Positions 8,792 through 12,318 of a stretch of DNA of 32,485 bases are shown one piece after another (position 1 is the first letter of the stretch; the number at the start of each line of letters is the position of its first letter). The notes beneath the pieces were generated by a model that was given only the letters and a program-made list of their open reading frames with translations, had not been told where the DNA came from and did no database searches. Location of the stretch: NCBI GenBank assembly GCA_944322615.1, contig CALUPH010000019.1, positions 1-32,485 of the forward strand, read 5' to 3'. Position numbers and translations under genes: made by a program. Source of the stretch: Candidatus Gastranaerophilales bacterium. Its GTDB lineage: Bacteria; Cyanobacteriota; Vampirovibrionia; Gastranaerophilales; Gastranaerophilaceae.

Positions 8792-9544
8792 TTATATATC
8801 AATTTTTTCCATCAACTCATCAGATATATCGAAATTAGAATAAACATTCTGTACATCATCATGTTCTTCCAACTTAGACATTAACCTTAAAATATTTGTT
8901 GCAATTTTTTCATCAGTAACTTCAACAGTATTTTCAGCAATTCTTGTTAATTCGGCAGAAGAACCTTTAAAGCCATTTTTTTCAAGAGTTTCAACGCAAT
9001 TTTGAAAATCTTCTGGAGATGTAATTACTTTATAAACATCATCTTCATCAATAACATCTTGCGCATTTGCTTCAATAGCTGCTTCAAATAGTTTATCAAA
9101 ATCAGTATTTTCTTTAGGAAACTCAATAGCGCCTACTTGTTTAAACATCCAACCAACACAGCCGGTTTCACCCAAATTGCCACCAAACTTAGAGAAAAAG
9201 CTTCTAATGTCTCCGGCAGTTCTATTTCTATTATCAGTCATTGCTTCAATAAATATAGCACTACCACCTGCACCATAACCTTCATAAGTTAATTCTTCTA
9301 CATTATCAGCACCACCGCCACCGGCACCTTTTTCAATAGCTCTTTTAATATTATCATTTGGAAGTCCAGCAGCTTTTGCTCTATCAATAGCAGTTCTTAA
9401 TCTAAAATTACCATTTGGATCAGCTCCGCCCATTTTTGCAGCAACTATTATTTCTCTTGAAAATTTTTGAAAAGTAACTCCTCTTGCTGCATCTACTGCT
9501 GCTTTTTTGTGTTTAATTGTTGACCACTTTGAGTGTCCTGACAT
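8792..9544 (-). CDS. yebC: YebC/PmpR-family protein
   Basis: A 250-aa member of the YebC/TACO1 family, full length. It begins with the hallmark [16 protein letters not shown] and carries the conserved GADPxxNxxLR-type stretch, GRxxxDxxxF-like [16 protein letters not shown], and the acidic C-terminal domain. The family was long called a transcriptional regulator; more recent work ties members to translation, including relief of ribosome stalling on proline-rich stretches. That is worth noting because this window also encodes a protein with a long PTx repeat (the lipoprotein at the right edge), although the link is only conjecture. It is monocistronic and divergent from the TPR gene with 46 bp between start codons. 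Confidence 0.96.
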
Positions 9545-9590
9545 ATATTATATCCTTTCATATTTTTTTATTTTATATTACAATAAAAGT

Positions 9591-10364
9591 ATGGAAAATG
9601 AAATAAATATCAACTTACAACAAGCATTAGATGCGTTTAAGGCAACAGATTATGAAAAAGCTGTTGAATCGTTCCTTAAAGTATTAGAAGAAGACAAAAA
9701 TAACCCCAATATTCTTAATAATATAGGATTGTGTTATGCAAAATTGGCTAAAGATGATTTAGCTATAGAATATTTTTTAAAAGCATTATCTTTTAATCCA
9801 AAATCTGTACAAACATATATAAATCTTGCAGATGTATATTATAGGAATAAAAACATTATTGAGGCTATAAATTTATTAGAAAATGGTGTAACTCTTATGC
9901 CTCAAGAAATTGCATTGAAGCATTATTTGTCTCGTTTTTATGTTGAAGACTGCAGATATGATTTGGCAATGGATCAATTATTTGAAATTTTAGATATAGA
10001 TGAAGATAATGTTGATGCATATTGGGATTTAGGAAACATTCAATTTGAACTTGGTGACTATGATAGTGCTGCGGAAAATTATGAAAATGTATTAGAAAAA
10101 GTTACTGATAATGCTGTTTTATATTATCAAACAGCCATAACTTATGAAGCTAACGATAATACAGATAAAGCTATTTCTAATCACTTGAAAGCAATTTCTT
10201 GCAACGAAAATTTCCATCCTTCTTATAAAAAATTAGGCATTTTATTTTTAGCAAGAAATGATAAAGAAAGTGCTATTGAATATTTTCAAGATTATTTAAA
10301 TTTTGACTTACCTTCAGATGAAAAGAAAAATATTGAAGACATAATTTCCAGAATTAGTAACTAA
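9591..10364 (+). CDS. TPR-repeat protein
   Basis: A 257-aa all-helical protein of about seven tetratricopeptide repeats, probably a protein-interaction scaffold in the cytoplasm; no signal peptide or membrane segment is seen. Typical repeats are LNNIGLCYAKLAKDDLAIEYF, then TYINLADVYYRNKNIIEAI and YWDLGNIQFELGDYDSAAENY, each with the W/L-G-Y-A-F-A-P-like spacing. The ATG at 9591 is chosen because the peptide upstream of it in frame is not TPR-like and would overlap yebC. No Shine-Dalgarno sequence precedes it, and TATATT lies at 9574-9579, so the message may have a very short leader. The binding partner is unknown. Confidence 0.88.
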   Translation: MENEININLQQALDAFKATDYEKAVESFLKVLEEDKNNPNILNNIGLCYAKLAKDDLAIEYFLKALSFNPKSVQTYINLADVYYRNKNIIEAINLLENGVTLMPQEIALKHYLSRFYVEDCRYDLAMDQLFEILDIDEDNVDAYWDLGNIQFELGDYDSAAENYENVLEKVTDNAVLYYQTAITYEANDNTDKAISNHLKAISCNENFHPSYKKLGILFLARNDKESAIEYFQDYLNFDLPSDEKKNIEDIISRISN

Positions 10365-10426: not shown

Positions 10427-10442
10427 TTATCGGATGTTTTAT

Positions 10443-10709
10443 ATGAAAGATATAGTTATTTATTCTGTAGATTATTGTCCATATTGCAAAAAAGCAGAAA
10501 TGCTTTTAAATGAAAAAGGTCTCTCATATCGAAAAATTGATATTACAGAAAATGAAGAAGAATATCGTAATCAATTAGGCGAATATTACGGTATTAAAGG
10601 TAGAGTCACTGTACCGCAAATCATAATCGGGGAGAAAAGAATTGGCGGTTATGATGACTTAAAAAGACTGAATGATAATGGTGAATTAGATAAATTATTA
10701 GGAATTTAG
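10443..10709 (+). CDS. grxC: Glutaredoxin (Grx3-like, CPYC)
   Basis: An 88-aa dithiol glutaredoxin that reduces disulphides or glutathionylated proteins in the cytoplasm. It has the thioredoxin-fold active site CPYC (C12-C15), the cis-proline segment TVPQI and the GG turn of the GGYDDL motif, all in standard positions; length is normal for the family. The ATG at 10443 is preferred over one 9 nt upstream because GGA lies at a workable distance and family members begin two or three residues before the first strand. Its TAG stop overlaps the TTTAGG that serves as ribosome binding site of the next gene, 7 nt downstream, so the two are co-transcribed and probably translationally coupled. Confidence 0.94.
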   Translation: MKDIVIYSVDYCPYCKKAEMLLNEKGLSYRKIDITENEEEYRNQLGEYYGIKGRVTVPQIIIGEKRIGGYDDLKRLNDNGELDKLLGI

Positions 10710-10716
10710 GTTATAT

Positions 10717-12318
10717 ATGATGAATAAATTTTTTAACTACTACGACTCACTATGTGTTGGAGCAAATACACCAACAGTATTTGCTTTTGACCCATATGTT
10801 ACCGCAATAAAAGAACTTTTTGTTTCAGAACTTCAACAAATCGTATTTTACATTGAAAAACTAAAAAAACTAGAAATAGATATGTCTGTATACACGGATA
10901 AAGTAATTGAATTCATATCAATTCTAATTGTAAATCTTGACTTTAGAAAAGAAAGCTTTTTCGTTATTATGGAAGATTTATACAATAATAAAAAAATGCT
11001 TGAAAAAATGTACATTTCAGCGTGTGAGAAAGCAAACAAGAAACCCGAATTAATTCTTGAACCGGAAGAAAATTATTCATCAAGAGAAATTATTTTAAAA
11101 GCATTAAATGAAAAAGAAAAAAATATTCAAGAAAGATTTTCAAAAATTAAAATCGAAAAAAATAAAAAAAATCTATATGAAATAATGATTAATCTTGTAT
11201 TTAATGCTTGTAATTGTTTGATAGAATTAAAAAACTTAAAAATAGATTTTCCTGAAGCAAAAAATGAAGTCTTAAAATTATTAAATACAACAAATTTTCC
11301 TGACTTAACTGATGAAGATTTAATATCAGTTATAAAAAATTTTTCAAAATGCAATTACAAAATTATGCAATTACTATATTCAACCATAATTGAGAAATAT
11401 GGTCCTGTTAGCGAAATAAATGTACCATTATGTAAGAAAAAAGGCAAAGCAATACTTGTTTCGGGAAACAGTTTCCTTGATTTAAAAAAGATACTTACTG
11501 CCGTTGAAGGATTGAATATAAATGTTTATACACATCATGAAATGATTAGTGCATTTCAATACAAAGAATTCAACAAATTTACAAATTTAGTAGGACACTA
11601 CCAAAAATCAGACAATAATTTTCAATTAGATTTCGCATCATTTCCCGGACCAATATATATATCAGGAAATGCTGTACCCAAAATTGATGTAATAAGAGGA
11701 CAAATTTATACTTCAGAAAAATATCCTGCATTTGGTATTGCAAAAATAGAAAATAATAATTTTGAACCTCTAATCAATTATGCGCTCGATTCTAAAGGAT
11801 TTGACAAAGATAAAGAAATAAATAAAATTAAAATCGGCTACAACGAATCAGAAATTGATGAAAAAATAAATTTAATATCAAATAAATTTCAAAATAAAGA
11901 AATAAAAAAAGTATTAATCATAGGACTAATAGACCAATTCAATCAATCAAATGAATATATAAATGAATTTCTTAAAAATTGTCCTATAGATAACTATATT
12001 ATTTCATTCTCGTATAATTTTAACAGAGAGAATATATGGCACGTTAACTCATATTTCGATTTTTCAGTAGTTTATAAAATAATAGAAAAATTAACTCAAA
12101 ATATACCAACAATAAAAGACGAAATTAGCGTATTTATAACAGATTGCAATACAACAACAATTGCACATATATTTAACTTTATTTATTTAGACATAAAAAA
12201 TATTTTTCTTGGACCTTGCTGCCCTAATATTATTAATCCGGTTTTAATTGATGGACTATGCAGTTTATTTGATGTCAAATCTATAACAAATGCTGTTGAT
12301 GATATTAATTCAATATAA
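10717..12318 (+). CDS. Divergent hybrid-cluster-protein (Hcp) homologue lacking metal ligands
   Basis: A 533-aa protein whose C-terminal half aligns clearly with Hcp/prismane hydroxylamine/NO reductase: AILVSG..DLKKIL, NINVYTHHEM (268-276), then LVGHYQ, FASFPGPIYISGNA and, at the end, LDIKNIFLGP and VKSIT. Length matches the family. However, the ligands of the hybrid [4Fe-2S-2O] cluster are nearly all replaced: His by N251, the SNC Cys by A319, the GGC Cys by I405, the LACGK Cys by S432/Y433, the GQC Cys by about F447, the WFEQK Glu by N478; only E275 remains. The N-terminal Cys cluster is also absent. It cannot bind the classical clusters, so it is probably a pseudoenzyme or a repurposed scaffold. 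The frame is intact and AT-typical, so it is not a decaying gene. Coupled to glutaredoxin. Confidence 0.85.
   Translation: MMNKFFNYYDSLCVGANTPTVFAFDPYVTAIKELFVSELQQIVFYIEKLKKLEIDMSVYTDKVIEFISILIVNLDFRKESFFVIMEDLYNNKKMLEKMYISACEKANKKPELILEPEENYSSREIILKALNEKEKNIQERFSKIKIEKNKKNLYEIMINLVFNACNCLIELKNLKIDFPEAKNEVLKLLNTTNFPDLTDEDLISVIKNFSKCNYKIMQLLYSTIIEKYGPVSEINVPLCKKKGKAILVSGNSFLDLKKILTAVEGLNINVYTHHEMISAFQYKEFNKFTNLVGHYQKSDNNFQLDFASFPGPIYISGNAVPKIDVIRGQIYTSEKYPAFGIAKIENNNFEPLINYALDSKGFDKDKEINKIKIGYNESEIDEKINLISNKFQNKEIKKVLIIGLIDQFNQSNEYINEFLKNCPIDNYIISFSYNFNRENIWHVNSYFDFSVVYKIIEKLTQNIPTIKDEISVFITDCNTTTIAHIFNFIYLDIKNIFLGPCCPNIINPVLIDGLCSLFDVKSITNAVDDINSI

Follow-up and report, generated by a model that had tools for sequence, protein, structure and literature searches.

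The window analysed here, a stretch of 32,485 nucleotides, corresponds to contig C19 in an assembly of 1.96 Mb from a member of the Gastranaerophilales, non-photosynthetic gut relatives of cyanobacteria. The genes leading to the locus of interest are a CHASE2-GGDEF gene on the reverse strand, genes for an SLH protein and a zinc-ribbon protein on the forward strand, yebC on the reverse strand and then, all on the forward strand, genes for a TPR-repeat protein, a glutaredoxin and an Hcp-like protein. Beyond the Hcp-like gene lies a fatty-acid synthesis block on the opposite strand (ketoacyl synthase, acyl carrier protein, fabG and the following genes). Both yebC and the fatty-acid genes were named from their translations and from gene order rather than by a family search. 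The features are listed in Table 1.

Inspection of the list of open reading frames revealed that the Hcp-like frame is open without interruption over 533 codons, as an earlier, sequence-only reading of this DNA had stated. Its second methionine (MNKFF, position 10720) serves as the start in most same-genus relatives and is probably the conserved start. The translation of the upstream gene contains a CPYC active site, and both its family assignment and the narrow gap agree with the CPYC glutaredoxin proposed in that reading; the translational coupling of the two genes, which it also claimed, is suggested by their spacing.

Table 1. Features of the glutaredoxin/Hcp-like locus, in positions of the window.
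Feature	Position	Strand	Evidence or remark
TPR-repeat protein, upstream of glutaredoxin	9507..10364	+	Syntenic in the genus
CPYC glutaredoxin	10434..10709	+	TIGR02181, 90.1 bits (cut-off 90); 7 nt upstream of the Hcp-like gene
Hcp-fold protein without cluster ligands	10717..12318	+	533 aa; ORF call, Prismane/TIGR01703, predicted model and fold match, 132-member ligandless family
C13	10753..10755	+	Alignment; invariant in the genus and nearest sister genera
C103, close to where the third outer helix ends	11023..11025	+	Cys in 30/30 same-genus and 93/101 other sequences
C165	11209..11211	+	Alignment; no variation within the genus; C, S or A in other genera
N251, in the column of cluster ligand His244	11467..11469	+	Alignment
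E275, in the column of cluster ligand Glu268	11539..11541	+	Alignment; variable within the genus
A319, in the column of cluster ligand Cys312	11671..11673	+	Alignment
I405, at the position of persulfide Cys406	11929..11931	+	Alignment
Y433 (or S432), at the position of cluster ligand Cys434	12013..12015 (Y433)	+	Alignment
C477, at the Tyr preceding canonical ligand Glu494	12145..12147	+	Cys in 126/131; lost only with C501
N478, in the column of cluster ligand Glu494	12148..12150	+	Alignment
C501, LGP-C-CP loop; aligns with the Thr of LGPTLP in canonical Hcp	12217..12219	+	Cys in 126/131; lost only with C477
C502	12220..12222	+	Alignment; fully conserved in the genus; usually another residue in other genera

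The Hcp-like protein matched the Pfam family Prismane (PF03063) with an E-value of 8e-21 and 74.6 bits, above the gathering cut-off of 27; other members of the ligandless family described below score 90-126 bits. It also matched TIGR01703 over residues 19-533 (5e-55), and a phmmer search against solved Hcps gave E. coli Hcp (7de4) as the best hit, at 1.7e-32. An AlphaFold model built from ten input sequences reached moderate confidence (pLDDT of 70, pTM of 0.72). Comparison of this model with the PDB ranked Hcps of D. vulgaris, E. coli and a methanogen first and CODHs next, with a top Foldseek match to Hcp at an E-value of 3e-20. Superposition by VIA yielded Z scores of 20-22 over 356-469 aligned residues against Hcps, the best being D. 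vulgaris Hcp at 22, and of about 14 against CODHs. By its predicted fold and its Pfam match, the protein is thus a true member of the Hcp/CODH superfamily. The likeness to Hcp that the sequence-only reading had placed in the C-terminal half is real, but homology and fold span the whole protein, and the structure prediction it had proposed as a check recovered the Hcp fold and so did not refute it.

Differences from Hcp were found at the metal sites. The ligand columns were read by alignment to canonical Hcps of the same order, in which the hybrid cluster is held by H244, E268, C312, C406, C434, C459 and E494. Only one of these seven is kept in the window protein, in line with the earlier claim of an Hcp homologue without cluster ligands. 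The position of C459 falls in a poorly alignable stretch near residues 443-447, and no Cys is present there. The surviving ligand, E275, had been singled out before as the only one left, which holds for the window protein itself; the column is not conserved, being E in 17 of the 31 same-genus sequences and N, D or G in the rest. The N-terminal [4Fe-4S] cluster, also reported missing in that reading, retains none of its four Cys in the window protein or across its genus, all four aligned positions being occupied by other residues, and the sole Cys of the N-terminal region, C13, stands at no ligand position. From this loss of ligands in the sequence, we infer that the old site holds no metal.

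Judged by its ligands, its N-terminal motif and its equivalog score, the window protein is very unlikely to be a functional Hcp. A normal Hcp, acting as NO or hydroxylamine reductase and with its ligands merely misaligned, would fit the full-length TIGR01703 match; however, the score of 187 bits is about half of the equivalog cut-off of 360.8 bits, and most ligand positions are flanked on both sides by conserved motifs and occupied by non-ligand residues across 132 members, which makes that explanation so improbable as to be negligible.

The ligand columns were read in 132 ligandless sequences, 31 from the same genus and 101 from about 35 other genera of the Gastranaerophilaceae. None of the seven ligands is kept in 87 members, one in 36, two in 6 and three in 3, whereas all 19 canonical relatives, taken as a control, keep 7/7. 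Outside the genus, mostly the third and fourth Cys alone of the N-terminal four-Cys motif are retained. In the tree, the ligandless proteins form one clade (117 rows, SH-aLRT of 99) and the canonical Hcps another. The gene was found in about 30 of 35 genomes of the genus, at identities of roughly 53-99%, and in nearly all sampled genomes of the Gastranaerophilaceae; profile matches in the order as a whole, a count that takes in canonical Hcps, occurred in 361 of 383 genomes. In a phylum-wide sample, matches within the family scored 470-705 bits where listed, hundreds of bits above those outside it. Twelve outside sequences were fetched, of which ten carry the full canonical ligand set, one is a fragment with canonical ligands only, and one (L218) has its C-terminal part split into two frames. 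Within what was sampled of the phylum, the ligandless clade appears restricted to the Gastranaerophilaceae.

The Nei-Gojobori omega of the window gene against close relatives is 0.05-0.09, and the window's copy is under strong purifying selection and not decaying. These results bear on two checks set out in the sequence-only reading: the relatives in sister genomes also lack the ligands, which argues against a sequencing error, and the gene is neither unique nor free of purifying selection. A decaying paralogue or an assembly artefact, in which the ligands were lost through relaxed selection or miscalled bases, is accordingly a very improbable account, even though the sequences come from metagenome-assembled genomes and one genome of the genus (G002) holds remnants only. 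Against it stand, in addition to the omega values, full-length frames in dozens of independent genomes, loss of the same ligands throughout a single clade, and the appearance of new invariant residues. The remnants in G002 (L095; contig C13, about 32500-33200) comprise the first two dozen codons and a scrambled C-terminal piece, next to an intact glutaredoxin gene; therefore, the Hcp-like gene is not essential, unless the assembly is in error there.

The family shows some further variation. In three loci (L133, L136 and L137, in genomes G260, G308 and G382), two or three diverged ligandless genes stand in direct tandem, and the copies belong to different subclades; they are therefore old paralogues in the family. 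A deep subclade of proteins of about 490 aa (L189, L192, L195, L197, L198, L200 and relatives) has lost the loop carrying the C434 ligand and retains C477/C501 and the N-terminal Cys pair. Two other families of the order also contain partly degenerate Hcps (L036, L040, L042 and L043). In L036, all four N-terminal Cys persist, as do C312 and C406, and the residue at the C501 position is likewise a Cys; fewer are retained in L040 and L042. These four may be intermediates toward cluster loss, or separate decays.

Within the genus, six Cys never vary: C13, C103, C165, C477, C501 and C502. Among 651 pairs of conserved columns, C477/C501 is the tightest, the sets of deviating sequences being identical. 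The five rows that lack both (L124/L125, L190, L194 and L201) occupy four separate positions in the tree. C103 is Cys in 123 of 131 rows and in some members is lost independently of C477/C501. The positions of Hcp C15 and C21 retain Cys in about 91 of the 101 rows outside the genus; Cys has been lost from them in the genus itself and in the sister genera closest to it, and C13 is invariant throughout these. The N-terminal Cys pair is present in L190, L194 and L201 despite their loss of C477/C501, and, in the reverse case, the genus keeps C477/C501 without the N-terminal pair. Because each pair is kept without the other, these patterns suggest that C477/C501 is a self-contained pair rather than half of one shared four-Cys metal site, although a smaller metal site is possible.

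In the predicted models, strands 470-474 and 495-498 are consecutive in a strand-helix-strand unit, and the predicted secondary structure puts C477 and C501 each three residues past the end of its strand. A close approach of the two residues is therefore plausible, and we infer that they lie near each other in the former cluster pocket. Isolated beta-bridge marks at 477 and 501 in the full-length model were absent from a model of residues 230-533, and were dropped as direct evidence of contact as the second model did not reproduce them.

The main rival to a thiol-based function is a metal site rebuilt at the new cysteines. The protein would then still be a metalloprotein, with C477, C501 and C103, joined by C13, C165 and C502 in the genus or by the two N-terminal Cys elsewhere, binding a [2Fe-2S] or [4Fe-4S] cluster or a single Fe or Zn, and the glutaredoxin would serve as electron or cluster partner. 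Six Cys invariant in the genus, with C103, C477 and C501 nearly so in the whole family, would suit such a site, as would the ancestral state, which is that of Fe-S proteins, the joint loss of C103, C477 and C501 in L124/L125, and an anaerobic cytosol, where metal-thiolate is favoured over disulfide. However, several members have lost C103 or the N-terminal Cys independently of C477/C501, which leaves no constant four-Cys set and weakens the case for one family-wide four-Cys metal site. Moreover, most CPYC glutaredoxins act in thiol-redox reactions and not as carriers of clusters. We regard a rebuilt metal site as possible but doubtful.

In the genus, 34 of 35 glutaredoxin loci lie directly upstream of the Hcp-like gene, the exception being G002. 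In two loci (L074 and L075), the glutaredoxin/Hcp-like pair is intact in two unrelated surroundings, and these are the cleanest evidence that the two genes are linked. The TPR gene is not part of the core, being missing where the pair sits elsewhere. In the other genera, a gene with a glutaredoxin fold was found upstream in 45 of 101 members, usually 1-12 nt away, and no glutaredoxin was detected upstream in 56. The active sites of these neighbours read CPYC in 30, CPYS in 11, CPFC in 3 and CQYC in 1. Some are of the window's subfamily and many of a second, GST_N_3-like one. The latter comprises proteins of about 76-85 aa with the pattern CPYC/CPYS...QVPFL...YESD and a GST_N_3 match, standing at the place of the classical glutaredoxin as if the partner had been swapped (L126, L127, L129, L131, L132, L134, L135, L140, L144 and L145). 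L194 has kept a CPYC glutaredoxin though its C477 and C501 are gone. Because of this locus and the 56 members without a detected glutaredoxin, the glutaredoxin is not strictly tied to the Cys pair, and the partnership is common but not strict. The window's genome also contains a gene for a GshB-type glutathione synthetase; a bifunctional GshF was not found in it.

Two further signs of linkage were set aside. The glutaredoxin and the Hcp-like gene are both absent from four genomes (G022, G023, G024 and G031), but yebC is gone as well, so that a missing contig is likelier; one of them, G023, is rated 96% complete and yet lacks all three. Both genes are duplicated in G010, where each copy carries the whole locus including yebC (L082 and L083), so that a mixed bin is likely.

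Canonical Hcp was seen in about 6 of 35 genomes of the genus, compared with about 30 for the ligandless protein. The window's own genome is among those with a canonical Hcp, which is split over two contig ends (the end of C12 and the start of C15 in G000; L002 and L001) and is apparently one gene cut by a contig break. The sequence-only reading had offered a pseudoenzyme partner or a regulator of nitrosylation or glutathionylation as one explanation. With canonical Hcp missing from most genomes of the genus, the ligandless protein is not simply a partner of that enzyme, and this role was rejected as a general one; a part in nitrosylation or glutathionylation is conceivable. A broader version, in which a dead Hcp serves as a non-redox scaffold or regulator that binds proteins or a small ligand, acting for example on nitrosylation or on canonical Hcp, would account for the lost catalytic ligands, the strong conservation of the protein and the co-occurrence of canonical Hcp in some genomes. 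It is nevertheless unlikely, as most genomes with the ligandless protein have no canonical Hcp, and both the covariation of the Cys pair and the repeated presence of a glutaredoxin gene next door point to thiol chemistry.

The reading that we prefer, tentatively and at somewhat short of an even chance, is that the protein uses a cluster-free Hcp scaffold for thiol-redox chemistry and, in part of the family, is serviced by a glutaredoxin. An Hcp branch specific to the Gastranaerophilaceae would have retained the fold and given up the hybrid [Fe-S-O] cluster, and the window's lineage would have given up the N-terminal [4Fe-4S] cluster as well. In place of the hybrid cluster, the Cys pair C477/C501 would have evolved, with C477 directly beside the position of the former ligand Glu494. 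As a dithiol/disulfide, the pair could carry out thiol/disulfide redox chemistry in the former active-site cavity, and the co-encoded glutaredoxin, where present, might re-reduce or deglutathionylate the dithiol. On these sequence features, the likely role of the ligandless protein is that of a thiol-based redox or nitrosative-stress sensor or oxidoreductase, and not of an NO or hydroxylamine reductase. The new set of conserved Cys lends support to an earlier suggestion that the fold now serves another ligand. The wider proposal, that in a whole bacterial family the Hcp/CODH metalloenzyme fold has become that of a thiol-redox protein free of clusters, with a Cys pair replacing the Fe-S-O cluster in its old place and glutaredoxins of two kinds recruited as partners, is put forward with considerable reserve, as a possibility well short of an even chance.

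Similar to Class I Hcps (D. vulgaris 1e1d and M. thermolithotrophicus 8cnr), the window protein shows the full-length fold in its predicted model, the same domain order, and the glycines and the YTH, FPG and LGP/CP blocks. However, it lacks both their hybrid-cluster ligand set and their four-Cys N-terminal cluster, and its family has C477/C501 and often a glutaredoxin upstream. With Class II, represented by E. coli Hcp and its reductase Hcr, it shares the fold, and E. coli Hcp is the best single sequence match in the PDB; it differs in the absent ligands and in adjoining a glutaredoxin gene rather than one for an Hcr-type reductase. CODHs are further away than Hcps in fold score. They do provide a precedent within the superfamily for altered active-site clusters: one survey covers Ni,Fe-CODH groups whose active-site motifs are altered (PMC6344411), and another paper describes CODH-V as lacking the C-cluster (PMC10502027). 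In the rows compared from the former survey, most cluster ligands are still there, whereas the Hcp-like site is essentially emptied. The neighbouring gene belongs with glutaredoxin 3 (TIGR02181) and the small GST_N_3/glutaredoxin-like proteins, and differs from these in its recurrent linkage to a cluster-free Hcp-fold gene. Searches of open-licence papers turned up no description of such a linkage, nothing on a cluster-free Hcp, and nothing on Hcp or hydroxylamine reductase in Gastranaerophilales/Melainabacteria.

Hcp has been studied almost wholly via its cluster, and a large, conserved branch that appears cluster-free indicates that the fold is useful without it. Such a branch offers a natural control for the protein shell, including its tunnels, partner binding and thiol chemistry. 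In addition, many genes of these common gut bacteria to which similarity would give the label 'hydroxylamine reductase' probably do not encode hydroxylamine or NO reductases, which bears on metabolic predictions from metagenomes. Should C477/C501 prove redox active, the family would be a documented case of a single pocket changing, in the course of evolution, from the chemistry of a metal cluster to that of cysteines.
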